From: Acidimicrobiales bacterium
Lineage (GTDB): Bacteria > Actinomycetota > Acidimicrobiia > Acidimicrobiales > Aldehydirespiratoraceae
Reading direction: 5' to 3'
DNA: 39,864 bases
Assembly (NCBI GenBank): GCA_022425325.1
Contig: JAKMFW010000006.1
Location: forward strand, 1-39,864
The position numbers and the translations under genes were made by a program. Numbering within the stretch: the stretch's first letter is position 1; every line of letters starts with the position of its first letter. The notes beneath the pieces are model-generated. The model ran no database searches. It was not told where the DNA came from and saw only the letters and a program-made list of their open reading frames with translations. Below are positions 1 through 4,938 of this stretch, piece after piece.

Positions 1-1005
1 GGCCCATGATCGTGTGCTCCGTGCCCGGAGCGATGTAGACCGGCAGGTCGACGCCGGCGTCCTCGGTGAGCTCCTCATTGAGATCGAGCACGGCTTTCAC
101 TGACGAATCCTCCAACCCAGCAAGGCCTGAAAAAACGCCTGTGTGCCGTCGTAGGCGTGATCGAAGCGGGCCCGGCGGATCTCGGGAAACTCGAGGGCTG
201 CGTACCGATACAGATGTGGGATACCCATTTCAGCTGCGGCGAACCCCTCGGTGGTTGACCAGTCAGGGACCGCGCCTTCGGTGCCCCACAGCCCGCCGAT
301 GTAACCGTTGATGAGCGTGGTGCTCGGGTAGCCACCCGAGGCGTCGGCCAGGCCGAGGATTTCGGCGTCGGGCAGGGCGTCGGCGAGCAGCCCGGCGAAG
401 AGCGGCGTGGGGATTCCGCCGGCGCTGGAGCCGGTGACGAGGATCTGGTCTGCCGCGCCGTAGTTGTCGACGACCTCGTCGAAGCCCTGGAGGCCGTTGA
501 GGTAGCCGGTGTGGTTGATGACGATGCCGTCGCCGTAGTCGTGGCCGGCGTTGGTGCCGAGGTGGCCATCGCCGGTGCAGTACGGCATGAAGATCATGGT
601 CCAGTCGCAGACAGGGTTCTCCGGGTTGTCGAGATTGAAGACGCCGTTGGCTGCCGCGTTCGGGTTGTCGTCGGCTCGGATGCTGTAGGTCGGGGATCCG
701 TTCGGGTCGCAGGTTTCGGCGGAGAAACAGGCGCCACCACCGTCGAAGAACAGCATCACCTTGCTCGGATCGCCCTCGCGGACCCAGTAGCTGTAGTCGG
801 AGCCGTCCGAGCAGACGCAGTCGTCGCCGGCGAGGACCTGTCGCCATGCGAGCGGGGGTTCGGTGGTCGTCGTCGAGGTTGTACTTGTCGTCGTGGCGGG
901 TGCCTCGGTGGTGGTCGTTGCCTCCGCCGTTATCTCGTCGTCACCGCCACCGCACGCAGCGGCGACGAGTGCGAGCGCAGTGATCGTCATCAGGATCTTG
1001 TGCAT
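1..1005 (-). CDS. Pectinacetylesterase-family secreted lipoprotein, frameshifted and cut by window edge
   Basis: Predicted secreted serine esterase of the pectinacetylesterase/NOTUM family. The ATG at 1005 follows a purine-rich GAGGGGG Shine-Dalgarno. Residues 1-18 form a signal peptide ending in AAAC (probable lipoprotein cysteine 18), then a Thr/Ser/Pro-rich linker to about residue 50. FFDGGGACF (about 86-94) resembles the oxyanion-hole segment, and GSSAGG (192-197) carries the nucleophile Ser194. The frame stops at 97, but the -1 frame continues to the window edge with a typical family C-terminus including GTEHTIM, which supplies the expected catalytic His. One extra T in the T6 run (minus strand, 130-135) would restore a single frame reading AFFSGLAGLEDSS. 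This is therefore either a one-base deletion or a sequencing indel. The natural substrate is unknown. Confidence 0.75.
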
Positions 1006-1211: not shown

Positions 1212-1523
1212 ATGACCTACACAAGCATTTCTACAAATCGGCCCGGAGCCCGTTTTCAGGAAGCCAAGACCCAAGCAGAGGTCGAAGCGCTGATGGTCGA
1301 GGTGTGGTCCGTCGTTACGGCGAATGGGGGCGAGAGCGTCGTTGCCGGCGCTGATCTTGCTCGAGGCGTGAACGTCTCACTTACGACGTACCCGGACGCC
1401 GCCTCGGCTGCAAAGAGCATCGTCGAACTCACGGCAAAGCAGCTCATTGAGTTTGAGTCCTCGGGCCAGTTCATGGCTCTTGACGAGTGGCTTCCCGTTG
1501 CCGGTTCGGCGATGGAAGGCTAG
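1212..1523 (+). CDS. Hypothetical protein, 103 aa
   Basis: A short protein I cannot place in a family. The start at 1212 is chosen over the upstream in-frame ATG at 1182 because AAAGGGGAG lies 7 bases before it. It begins MTYTSISTNRPGARF and has no signal peptide, membrane segment or cysteines. Alternating helix-like stretches (EVEALMVEVWSVV, AASAAKSIVELTAKQLIEF) and strand-like stretches (VNVSLTTY) suggest a small alpha/beta domain, possibly of the dimeric ferredoxin-like type; that is a guess. It stands alone, divergent from the esterase and convergent with the selenoprotein gene. Confidence 0.6.
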   Translation: MTYTSISTNRPGARFQEAKTQAEVEALMVEVWSVVTANGGESVVAGADLARGVNVSLTTYPDAASAAKSIVELTAKQLIEFESSGQFMALDEWLPVAGSAMEG

Positions 1524-1732
1524 CGAAAGCCAAAGCGGCGCTTCGGCGCACCATCAAGCCAGACTCGGCCTGATCACGAGAGCCATGGCACGCTCGACCG
1601 AGCGCGTGTTTGGCGCGTCCCATTGTCGAGCAGGTGAGCTCCCTTGATGGCATGACGACGGAGGGCTTCCGTGACGCCACAAGCAATTGCGGCGCCTGTG
1701 CCGGCATATGGGAAGAAGGTTTTGGCGAGGCC

Positions 1733-1788
1733 GAGAACGGCATCGGGACCCGCAGAACCCGGTCGATTTCTTGGAGAGAAACCGCCGA
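1733..1788. repeat. 56-bp dispersed repeat, copy A (hairpin-forming)
   Basis: Matches 5079-5134 at 51 of 56 positions without gaps. The right part is an imperfect palindrome: GGTCGATTTCT, a five-base loop, AGAAACCGCC. Within the palindrome the two copies differ only in the loop (TGGAG here, ACGAG in copy B). It lies in the 303-base gap 1524-1826, just beyond the stop codon of the minus-strand selenoprotein gene. I see no gene in the rest of that gap. Confidence 0.75.
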
Positions 1789-1826
1789 GCGTTGGGGCTG
1801 TGTGGTGTGCGAAAAGGTTTCGACGT

Positions 1827-2978
1827 TCAGTCGGCGGTCTGTCGTTCGATCAGCCGTTTCATGTGCGTGGCTGAATCCATGTCGACCACCTCGCCGACCA
1901 TCGCACGCGCACGGCTGAAGTTGGGTCGGGTACTCAACCCGGTCGGGATCTCGAGCCGAAGGGTTCGGGTCCGAGGGATGAAACACTGGGCGTTGTCGCA
2001 GGCCTGGTACCGGATCGTGACGTCGACCTCGATCGACTCCGCGCCATCGGCGATGGTCTTGCCGAGGACGCTGTCGGCCCACACGTTCATCGTGAAGTCG
2101 ACGGTGCCGTCCCAGACCTGGAGCGGTTGAGTGACGCCGGGGAGCTCGAATGGGTGCGTCGGTTCGCACTCGGCGGGGTCGTTGCGGAAGCCGTCGGGAC
2201 CGTCGATTGTGATCGAGGTGGCGACCATCCCGTCCGGGACGGGGTCGTCGTAGATGTGCAGCCCCTCGGGCATGGCGACCCGAAGAATCAGCCGCCGACG
2301 GGGGCCAGCACGAAGGACGCCAGCACCGCCCCGCACGAAGGCGGTCACCGCGATGCCGTCATCCTCGGATGCGGTCGTGAGTGGGTCGCCGGCCCCTGGC
2401 AATACCCGGCCGGCGTAGCTGTCGAGGATGGCCTCGACCCCGTCGCGGTGGGCGAAGTGTCGGTTGAAGAGTTTGTCGACGATTACGCCGTCCTCGTCGA
2501 GGAGGAAGAAGCCGGGGAACGGCACGCCATAGAACGGCACGTCGTCGGGTTGCACGATCGTGTTGAGGACCTCGTACTGCCGGATCACGGCCGAGTCGAC
2601 GTCGGAGAAGAGCGTGAACTCGACACCTGACGCCTCAACGTACGCTGCCAGCGCCTCGGCATCGTCGTAGCTGACGCCGTAGAGCTTGATGCCCTCAGCG
2701 GCCAGTTCCGGCAGGCTGTTGTGCAGCTCGACCAGCTGCGTAAGGCATGGCGGTCACCACACTGCTGATCGGTAGAACAAGAGCGCAGCTCGCGCCCCAT
2801 CACGATCGGCATGGAATGAGACCGTTTCGCCGAGATGGTTTGGGAGTTCGAAGTCGGGTGCAGGTTGCCCAATCGAGAGCCCCGGCTTGAACTCGCCGGT
2901 CGGGATCATCCGCTGGGTGCTGGTTACCGGCAAGGCCCCGGTGAAGCCATACGGGTCCGTGAACTCGTCTTCGGTCAT
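1827..2978 (-). CDS. Redoxin selenoprotein (Sec75, UPPC motif) with DsbD-N-like C-terminal domain
   Basis: One continuous 384-codon frame interrupted only by a TGA at 2756-2754, codon 75. Residues about 34-195 are an AhpC/TSA-type thioredoxin fold (IGQPAPDFELP, LLFYRSAVW, then the TGA, PPC, LTQLVELHNSLPELA, FFLLDEDGVIVDKLF). Relatives carry a CxxC at this place, so TGA stands for the first redox cysteine, giving U75-P-P-C78. A bacterial-type SECIS hairpin lies at 2723-2739. Residues about 210-350 resemble the DsbD N-terminal domain, with a second cysteine pair in YQACDNAQCF. There is no signal peptide, so cytosolic action is likely. The start is ATG 2978 with TACGGT 7 bases upstream (leaderless type). 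Role inferred: thiol or peroxide reductase passing electrons between the two redox centres. A nonsense-mutated pseudogene is the alternative. Confidence 0.8.
2723..2739 (-). promoter_or_regulatory. Bacterial SECIS-like element
   Basis: On the minus strand, 14 bases after the in-frame TGA, GCAGCT pairs perfectly with AGCTGC around the loop GGTCG. The loop starts 24 bases from the U of UGA. The Escherichia coli fdhF SECIS has the same layout, with a GGUCU loop whose essential G and U are bases 23 and 24; here the corresponding G and U are 25 and 26. The element lies inside the coding region, as expected for bacterial SECIS. Confidence 0.7.
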
Positions 2979-2985
2979 GGCCCAG

Positions 2986-2991
2986 ACCGTA
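2986..2991 (-). promoter_or_regulatory. -10-like box TACGGT of the selenoprotein gene
   Basis: TACGGT reads on the minus strand and ends 7 bases before ATG 2978. This fits a leaderless transcript starting at or near the A of ATG. No clear -35 box was seen. Confidence 0.5.
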
Positions 2992-3113
2992 CTTCGCCGA
3001 CTAAGTCCACAACTTCATCGCTTGTGTCTTGCGCTCAAAGCTTGCGAGTCTCTCCAGGAAGGTCAGCTCCGGTATTGCCAAGAACGGCGTGACGCACCCG
3101 CAGAGCCCAGATA

Positions 3114-3138
3114 GAGGCGAAGAAATCCATTTCGCCTC
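3114..3138. terminator. Candidate hairpin 3' of the collagen-like gene
   Basis: GAGGCGAA (3114-3121) and TTCGCCTC (3131-3138) form an 8-bp stem with a 9-base loop, 58 bases beyond the minus-strand stop at 3196. No good U-tract follows, so intrinsic termination is uncertain. The rest of the 217-base gap 2979-3195 holds no gene that I can see. Confidence 0.4.
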
Positions 3139-3179
3139 CGCCCGAGCAGAATCTGCAATCGGTCCCGCATGTCTGCTCA

Positions 3180-3220
3180 CACGGGTGCCGCATCATTAGC
3201 TGTCAGCGAGGGCACCCGTG
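3180..3220. repeat. 10-bp inverted repeat over the collagen-like gene's stop codon
   Basis: CACGGGTGCC (3180-3189) and GGCACCCGTG (3211-3220) are perfect complements around 21 bases that contain the TAA stop (3196-3198, minus strand). It may act as an mRNA 3'-end hairpin. Confidence 0.45.
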
Positions 3221-4938
3221 AGCACGACGGCCGTTTCGACGGCGTATGCGCTTTCGTTCGTCACCGTGAACGATCCTGCTGCTTCGGTGATTTCCAGCTG
3301 GTTCTTGTGCACGTCGATGACCGCGAGCTCGTCGACGTCGTACGCCCGATACAGCCACTTCACGGTGTGTGGGCCGGTAGTGATGGCTGCTCGAGGGCCG
3401 TAGCCCGGCGAGCGCAACGGCATGAACAACTGGTTGGATTCGACCGCGCCGGTTTCGCCGATGAGCCACGTCGACGACATGATCGAATCGTCTTCGCCGG
3501 CGATGATCATGAAAGTTCCGTCGTCGAACGCGGCCACGACGGGGTCTTCGTCGTACTCCTGGTCTGTGAGCGGATGCGGCCCGAACGTGTCACTGCCGTC
3601 AGGGTTGCTCTTGAAGTACACGTATGCGTCAGGGCCGCCAACTTCGATCACAAACACACAGTCGTCGTTGGCGTTGCAGGCAATGTTCGACTCGGAGATG
3701 TAGCTGCCGGCGACCTGTGTCGTTGACGTGACCGCAAAGTCCTCATCGAAGAAGGTGACGTGCTGGTTGGTGCGTGTCCCGTCGCTGGTCTCATGGAGGA
3801 CGACAACGCCACCTCCGGTCAGGGCGCGAAGGATGCACTTATCGTTCGTGATCTCGTTTTGCGTAGCGGTCTGTGTCGGGGTGGTGTTGTCGTAGAGATC
3901 AACGGTGCTGCTGGTTCCCAGCGCACCTCCGTCCCCGATCGGGATGATGTGCAGCTGCAAGAAACCCTGGCTCGGGCTCTGGAGGTCGGGGTCGTCTTCG
4001 AAGTTGTACACGCAGCTCACCAGCACGTCGTTTTGTGTGACGACGTTCGCTGTGTCGGAGTCACGCGAGTTCAGCCAGTGGTCTGTCAGCGTCCGTGTAG
4101 CCAGCGTCGCGCCGCTGTCATCAAATGCCACGATGTTGATGTCGCCGGCGGTGCCTTCGCGAGAGGAGGCGTAGACGAGCACATAGTTGCCGTCAGACAA
4201 CGCCACCACTTCGTGGTCTTCGTCTGTGCTCGTGACCTCTGTCGAGTCTTGAACGACATCAAAATCTCCGGATCGTGCACCGTCTTCATCAAGGCTCGCC
4301 ATAACGAACGAGTACACGTCGTCGGTGTCGTTGAACAACTTCGCAAAGACCGTGAAGCCGCTGTCCGTCTCCAGCAATGTGACACCGCTCCAATCCCAAT
4401 CGTCGTAGGGCGAGACGGGATCAAAGGCTGGCAGCACAACCACCGAACTCGCCGGATCTACCGCCTGATAAACGGACGAGAACTCATCAGCTTCGAAGGT
4501 CCTGCCGCCATAGTAGAACGTCACATCGCTGCGGTACGCAGCTAGCTCGTGGGTAACGGTCAGGGTTTCACCCGGGGCAAGCGTTTGGGTCTGGGTAACG
4601 ATTTGGTCACTCGCATCCGCACCGGCCGGTCCTACCGGACCAGCGGGTCCCGTCGGTCCTGCGGGTCCCGGCTCACCATCTGCACCGGCAGGTCCTGGCT
4701 CTCCCGCAGGCCCACGATCACCTGCGGGTCCTGGTTCTCCTGCCGGTCCCGGTTCGCCCTCTGCCCCAGCTGGTCCTGGTTCACCAGCTGCTGCCTGTTC
4801 ACCGAGCGTCACCTCGGGAGCATCTGAGTCGCACGAACGCACGAACGAACCCAACGCCAAGAGCACAGCCAACGACACACCTGCGGTCACCGCCGCGTCT
4901 TTTTTGGCAAACGTACTGATGCTCTTGATTGCGGTCAT
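3196..4938 (-). CDS. Membrane-anchored collagen-like surface protein
   Basis: 580 aa. A short basic N-terminus is followed by a hydrophobic segment (about residues 15-33) that should anchor the protein or act as an uncleaved signal. Residues 52-108 are 19 uninterrupted Gly-X-Y triplets rich in GEP and GPA, expected to form a collagen triple helix. The remaining 470 residues are acidic and strand-rich, with recurring units such as [14 protein letters not shown] and [15 protein letters not shown], like the repeat blades of secreted beta-propellers; the exact fold is unproven. The start at 4938 has GGGAAG a few bases upstream and a possible -10 at 4966-4971. Function inferred: extracellular stalk plus display or adhesion domain. 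It stands alone between the selenoprotein gene and tmRNA. Confidence 0.75.
4615..4785 (-). repeat. Collagen Gly-X-Y coding repeat
   Basis: 171 bases encode 19 consecutive Gly-X-Y triplets (residues 52-108), mainly [15 protein letters not shown] and GPV. The 9-base periodicity makes this prone to slippage, so repeat number may vary between strains. Confidence 0.85.

Follow-up and report, generated by a model that had tools for sequence, protein, structure and literature searches.

A probable Acidimicrobiales selenoprotein in which a UxxC redoxin domain is joined to a DsbD-alpha-like domain

One frame near the start of the window (the whole stretch of DNA analysed, 39,864 nucleotides from an Acidimicrobiales bacterium) raises a plain question: does the TGA that interrupts it stand for selenocysteine (Sec, U), or does it mark a gene that has been broken? 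The frame runs on the minus strand from position 2978 to 1827 and comprises 384 codons, of which 74 are sense codons from the ATG, one is the TGA at 2756-2754, 308 are sense codons beyond it, and the last is a stop. The TGA sits in the context RSAVW-TGA-PPC; with U in its place, the active site becomes RSAVW-U-PPC, giving the protein a UxxC motif, U75-P-P-C78. The initial annotation, which proposed a new selenoprotein of the redoxin type, had the coordinates and codon counts right and gave no strand. Its prediction that standard annotation would fragment the gene is borne out, as an open reading frame listing under translation table 11 breaks it into pieces of 74 and 253 amino acids. The features on which the question turns are as follows, the counts referring to the window and the best 80 of 139 relatives.

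1827..2978, minus strand: predicted selenoprotein gene, 383 residues with Sec at 75; ATG 2978-2976; stop TGA 1829-1827
2754..2756, minus strand: predicted Sec75 codon, in-frame TGA (W-U-P-P-C); TGA in 64 and Cys in 17 of 81 homologues
2745..2747, minus strand: Cys78, putative partner of Sec75; kept in 81 of 81 homologues

Other genes of the window encode a pectinacetylesterase-family protein with a hydrophobic, Cys-containing start (97-1005, minus strand; PF03283), a protein with a collagen-type Gly-X-Y repeat near its N-terminus (3196-4938, minus strand; PF01391), and a cytochrome P450 (5648-6967, plus strand; PF00067).

If this were an ordinary Cys redoxin gene into which a nonsense mutation or a sequencing error had brought the TGA, the split in the table-11 listing would be that of a pseudogene, and one close relative does offer a precedent: in genome G074 (JAAEMS010000064.1; L022 and L050 are this one locus), the frame of the copy is disrupted and a further TGA falls at an Arg column, so that the gene appears to have decayed or been misassembled. 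The wider set of relatives argues strongly the other way. Seven of 100 related genomes carry the gene (E <= 1e-20), all with the TGA. A phylum sample of 396 genomes (E limit, 1e-12) added one full-length carrier, G253, again with the TGA, the other matches being partial and confined to query residues 11-228. A class sample of 395 genomes (E limit, 1e-30) gave 13 matches in 12 genomes, including the window and G253; the active site could be read in 12 of these matches, each with the TGA and, after it, a hairpin of the same type, while the 13th (L137) starts past the site. The phylum and class searches scored four candidates per genome, and a Cys codon was seen in no full-length relative from the 100 related, 396 phylum, or 395 class genomes, contrary to the possibility, raised initially, that all close relatives have an intact Cys. 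Alignment A1, used to scan named genomes, yielded 139 confirmed relatives, of which the best 80 were retained; together with the window these 81 homologues have 64 U, 17 C, and no other residue at the redox column, and Cys forms are possibly undercounted because only the best 80 of 139 were retained. A named strain, Candidatus Litorirhabdus singularis IMCC14734, is among the carriers of a relative (L053). The 64 U rows are partly redundant (L072 and L073 come from one assembly, L052 and L094 from another, and some loci repeat carriers among the related genomes) and hold 58 distinct 45-mers. The selenoprotein gene copies L072 and L073 (PBMG01, isolate SP219) lie on separate contigs of a single assembly and encode identical proteins.

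The sequence on both sides of the TGA is family-like and without decay, as initially proposed: the PF00578 match spans the TGA, a PF11412 match lies downstream, and the frame remains open with its residues kept. Because both flanks match one family and the TGA occupies the same codon in relatives from 95% down to about 30% identity, it reflects neither chance nor decay. Given this conservation in independent genomes, pseudogene and sequencing error are rejected as highly improbable. A changed genetic code, in which the lineage would read TGA as another amino acid without selenium, agrees with a frame that is open once the in-frame TGA is counted as a residue but is rejected as less probable still, since TGA is in use as an ordinary stop: it terminates this same gene (1829-1827), the next stop is likewise TGA in 47 of 80 homologous frames (from the window and the best 80 of 139 relatives; a few of the 47, e.g., in L050, may be internal), the non-TGA rows at the column are all Cys, the genome has Sec machinery, and a SECIS-like hairpin follows the codon.

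The U/C alternation suggested as a check on the Sec reading is thus found across the 81 homologues but not among close relatives, as the Cys forms constitute a separate clade, composed of Acidobacteriota only in the tree of the window and the best 80 of 139 relatives. When the columns at and near the site are left out, the resulting tree (quick, unrooted, and with long-branch warnings) requires one U/C change. By record labels, with the proviso that MAG contigs can be misplaced, the U forms belong mainly to Actinomycetota and Pseudomonadota, with 3 from Acidobacteriota, 2 from Myxococcota, and single representatives from Binatota, Poribacteria, Latescibacterota, Chloroflexota, and one archaeal MAG. 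No relative was found in the viral contigs scanned, and plasmids gave partial matches in 43 records, none of them reaching 80% query coverage.

Immediately beyond the TGA lies a candidate bacterial SECIS (bSECIS) element, laid out as TGA, a 15-nt spacer, a 5-bp stem (6 bp with the flanking pair), and a 5-nt loop.

2723..2739, minus strand: candidate bSECIS hairpin GCAGCU-GGUCG-AGCUGC; 6 bp, 5-nt loop, 20 nt from UGA to loop, -8.9 kcal/mol for the 17-mer

In the available text of PMC13188914, the bSECIS model has a loop of 3-9 nt with G in the first two loop positions, a stem of 4-16 bp, a distance of 16-37 nt from the UGA, and an MFE of <= -7.5 kcal/mol; the window hairpin, with its GGUCG loop, lies within these ranges at the values listed. 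Among the window and the best 80 of 139 relatives, the five inner pairs form in 64/64 U genes versus 4/17 Cys genes, an xGU loop occurs in 64/64 versus 4/17, and the two occur together in 64/64 versus 1/17. The outer pair in the same 64 U genes is GC in 34, CG in 26, and unpaired in 4 (30, 23, and 4, respectively, in 57 distinct rows). In a DNA alignment of those 57 distinct rows, 98.8% of cells were paired versus 90.5% in shuffles (0 of 500 as high) and 2.9-40.1% in slid versions, and double (compensatory) changes were seen in 3 of the 6 hairpin pairs. RNAalifold recovered the hairpin unprompted and no other structure. The signal is evident in comparative analysis and in short windows but not in a single 60-nt fold, for which the minimum-energy structure differs from the hairpin and is not unusually stable (z 0.30); a test of the outer pair on independent pairs, of which there were only 4, was not significant, and a search of positions 1500-3300 against Rfam returned no match up to E 5. 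Since the hairpin overlaps the codons of a conserved QLVEL, protein constraint could explain some of its conservation. Full pairing by chance in QLVEL-encoding genes is expected in 22% of cases under the family's own codon usage; this comparison and the covariation test meet the objection only in part, with relatedness not fully corrected in either. One Cys homologue from Acidobacteriia (L123, 5133-5180) still has the whole SECIS-like hairpin, in a genome where selA was not found; the hairpin is perhaps the relic of a former Sec gene.

Sec machinery, the lack of which would have spoken against the Sec reading, is complete in the host genome (2.6 Mb, 95% complete), as a search for the four genes named at the outset revealed: tRNA-Sec (64 bits, above the Rfam cut-off, and also labelled SeC by ARAGORN), selB (288 bits), selA (371 bits, adjoining selB on the same contig), and selD (364 bits), whose own translation has an in-frame TGA at HGAG-U-GCK. 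Downstream of the selD TGA (L017, G000 C101), a putative hairpin, GGCGCA-GGUCG-UGCGCC, can be read by eye at 32 nt from TGA to loop; its loop, GGUCG, is the same as that in the window gene. Among the 100 related genomes, selA was found in 79, including 7/7 carriers of the gene (in G039 as a fragment below the cut-off only), and none of the 21 genomes without selA is a carrier. Among the genomes of the wider set of homologues, 50 were searched, covering 17/17 Cys loci and 33/63 U loci of the best 80 of 139 relatives: selA was present in 25/33 U-locus genomes (one a sub-cut-off fragment) versus 1/17 Cys-locus genomes (Fisher p 2e-6, relatedness ignored). The 8/33 U-locus genomes in which selA was not found may be incomplete assemblies.

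What kind of protein would this reading produce? The term "redoxin" used initially holds for the first half of the protein; the second half is a DsbD-alpha-like domain.

2478..2873, minus strand: AhpC/TSA (redoxin, thioredoxin-fold) domain, residues 36-167; PF00578, E 1.4e-27, 96.5 bits against a cut-off of 26
1953..2300, minus strand: predicted DsbD-alpha-like (DsbD_N) domain, residues 227-342; PF11412; its model matches ScsB and DsbD N-terminal domains
1998..2000, minus strand: Cys327, first of a CX4C pair; aligns with a Cys of E. coli DsbD-alpha
1983..1985, minus strand: Cys332, second of the CX4C pair; same counts as Cys327; placed by profile alignment with E. coli DsbD-alpha

An AlphaFold2 model of the whole protein, built with 48 sequences, had a pLDDT of 92.6 and a pTM of 0.90. 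Its N-terminal half matches peroxiredoxins (3hjp, Z 18.4, 2.2 A over 154 residues; AhpE; Bcp); in the Foldseek ranking, ResA comes shortly after them. Redoxin-domain matches filled the whole-model search, and the C-terminal domain was compared via a separate model (pLDDT 94.6), for which the best matches were ScsB and DsbD N-terminal domains (E 1e-5 to 1e-4, 10-17% identity), with 1vrs and 1z5y, both disulfide-linked complexes, among them. Gamma-adaptin ear domains match that model at nearly equal E-values, so the fold match is weak on its own. PF11412 scores 27.3 bits with the domain alone, passing the cut-off of 25, and 24.4 bits, just below it, in the whole protein; 47 of 48 family members match it at E <= 0.01 (best E, 7.7e-13). 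phmmer with the single C-terminal domain found no DsbD, and a profile of the domain reached DsbD at E 0.25-0.35 only, with the Cys pairs aligned. Both Cys327 and Cys332 are kept in 60/64 U rows (3 gaps, 1 other residue) and 16/17 Cys rows (1 gap) among the window and the best 80 of 139 relatives. Taken together, Pfam, fold comparison, and the aligned Cys pair firmly indicate a domain of the DsbD-alpha type. Neither a DsbD transmembrane domain nor a second thioredoxin-like domain after DsbD_N was matched in the window protein. With the codon and the domains considered jointly, we regard it as very probable that the in-frame TGA is read as Sec and that the protein has this two-domain anatomy.

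The claim of novelty made at the outset stands in part. AhpC/TSA selenoproteins with UxxC are already catalogued: the available text of PMC13188914 lists a Prx-like thiol:disulfide oxidoreductase (PF00578, UxxC/UxxU; representative WP_010940744.1) as well as a Redoxin family protein (PF08534, UxxC), and that of PMC2398784 lists Prx-like 1 from the GOS survey, with 225 Sec sequences and several fusions, none named there as DsbD. Like the Prx-like PF00578 proteins and Prx-like 1, the window protein has an AhpC/TSA domain with Sec first in UxxC, and by domain and motif it falls in the Prx-like thiol:disulfide oxidoreductase group. No report of a DsbD_N fusion selenoprotein was found in the open literature, as far as the available main texts go (PMC13188914, PMC9312934, PMC2398784, PMC1088965, and PMC1794560 among them), nor any of a DsbD-alpha fusion in searches that also took in the accessible parts of PMC12013277 and PMC5029168; open-licence papers yielded no selenoprotein literature on Acidimicrobi-. 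A parallel in layout is Unknown_3, likewise a Sec-containing Prx-like domain fused to a Cys-bearing domain; by description Unknown_3 has three conserved Cys including a CxxC, whereas the window family has two, in CX4C, and a DsbD_N match. The PxxxTxxU motif of Sec-peroxiredoxin, as described in the available text of PMC13188914, is absent: the residue three before Sec is Ala in 59 and Val in 5 of 64 U rows (the window and the best 80 of 139 relatives). Against NCBIfam, the window protein stays below the cut-off of every model. As for two likewise redox selenoprotein-related families, the SelL-related model NF040769 gives 28.2 bits against a cut-off of 120, and the 20 families to which at least one of 48 members has a match at E <= 0.001 do not include hypothetical protein GOS_C (NF045500). 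With DsbD alpha and ScsB N-terminal domains the C-terminal half shares its fold and its Cys pair; unlike in E. coli DsbD, there is one residue fewer between the two Cys, and unlike in DsbD and ScsB, the domain is fused to a redoxin, is apparently cytosolic, and comes with no transmembrane part.

The apparent location of the protein differs between U and Cys forms. Among the window and the best 80 of 139 relatives, a hydrophobic 12-residue stretch ahead of the redoxin domain occurs in 0/64 U forms versus 13/17 Cys forms, as counted by a simple hydropathy rule with start codons picked by script; in the remaining four Cys forms, the start is unclear (three) or lost at a contig end (one). As a hydrophobic N-terminus is absent from the U forms and present in most Cys forms, Sec forms appear cytosolic and Cys forms exported, and we infer a cytosolic location for the window selenoprotein. 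The host genome has one DsbD_TM-type match (43 bits), on another contig. Gene neighbourhoods were compared at 77 loci (L046, L048, L073, and L094 excluded as repeats), and none of the shared neighbours names a partner. Recurrent clusters are mostly confined to one Acidimicrobiia group (the largest in 18/77 loci), with a few scattered members elsewhere, and for that reason no partner is proposed from the neighbourhood. We tentatively suggest, at somewhat less than even confidence, that these proteins represent a widespread clade of cytosolic two-module selenoenzymes with a DsbD-alpha-type reductant that was brought into the cytosol and joined in cis to the Sec redoxin, a clade for which the best 80 of 139 relatives include no Cys member, the exported Acidobacteriota branch using Cys instead.

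How might such an enzyme work? Judging from the conservation and covariation of the downstream hairpin, SelB with Sec-tRNA would read UGA75 as Sec under its guidance. Sec75 in the AhpC/TSA domain would be the attacking residue, reducing a peroxide or a disulfide, and would then form a selenenylsulfide with Cys78; these roles of attacker and partner follow from the motif. In the periplasm, where modules of this type are known, DsbD-alpha reduces partners of the thioredoxin fold in trans by handing electrons on to them, CcmG being one example. By analogy, the DsbD-alpha-like domain could use Cys327/Cys332 to reduce the Se-S bond within the same chain, and a general cytosolic reductant such as thioredoxin might recharge the CX4C pair. 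This in-chain relay from Cys327/Cys332 to the Sec75-Cys78 bond is a possibility that we rate slightly below an even chance.

Two other views of its function bear on the substrate and on the second domain. The enzyme may be chiefly a thiol-disulfide reductase rather than a peroxidase, a matter of substrate that is compatible with the mechanism just outlined and that we consider evenly balanced: the UxxC motif, W-U-P-P-C, is of the thioredoxin type, the window protein has sub-cut-off matches to ResA and DsbE models, and PMC13188914, in its available text, files PF00578/UxxC proteins as Prx-like thiol:disulfide oxidoreductases, whereas the top-ranked solved folds are those of the peroxiredoxins, ResA being close behind. 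Alternatively, Sec may be correctly assigned and the DsbD-alpha-like domain may be a docking or dimerisation module, with thioredoxin or a small thiol reducing the Se-S bond directly. Sec forms without a hydrophobic N-terminus would not have the usual membrane partner of DsbD-alpha available, and the silence of the neighbourhood on any partner agrees with such a role; yet docking would not need the CX4C cysteines, which are retained in nearly all U and Cys rows, and we consider this arrangement rather unlikely.

Reading the TGA as Sec explains a gene that standard ORF calling cuts in two. Members of its family occur in Actinomycetota (Acidimicrobiia), Pseudomonadota, Acidobacteriota, and others; because such calling splits the gene, part of the selenoproteome of its carriers has probably been missed. 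The compensated hairpin common to distant phyla constitutes a clean SECIS data set, and the idea of a selenoenzyme with a built-in reductant can be put to the test in this fusion. With the exported Acidobacteriota branch using Cys, selenium use appears to go together with cellular location, and this split of Sec and Cys along apparent location is relevant to the reasons for retaining or losing Sec.
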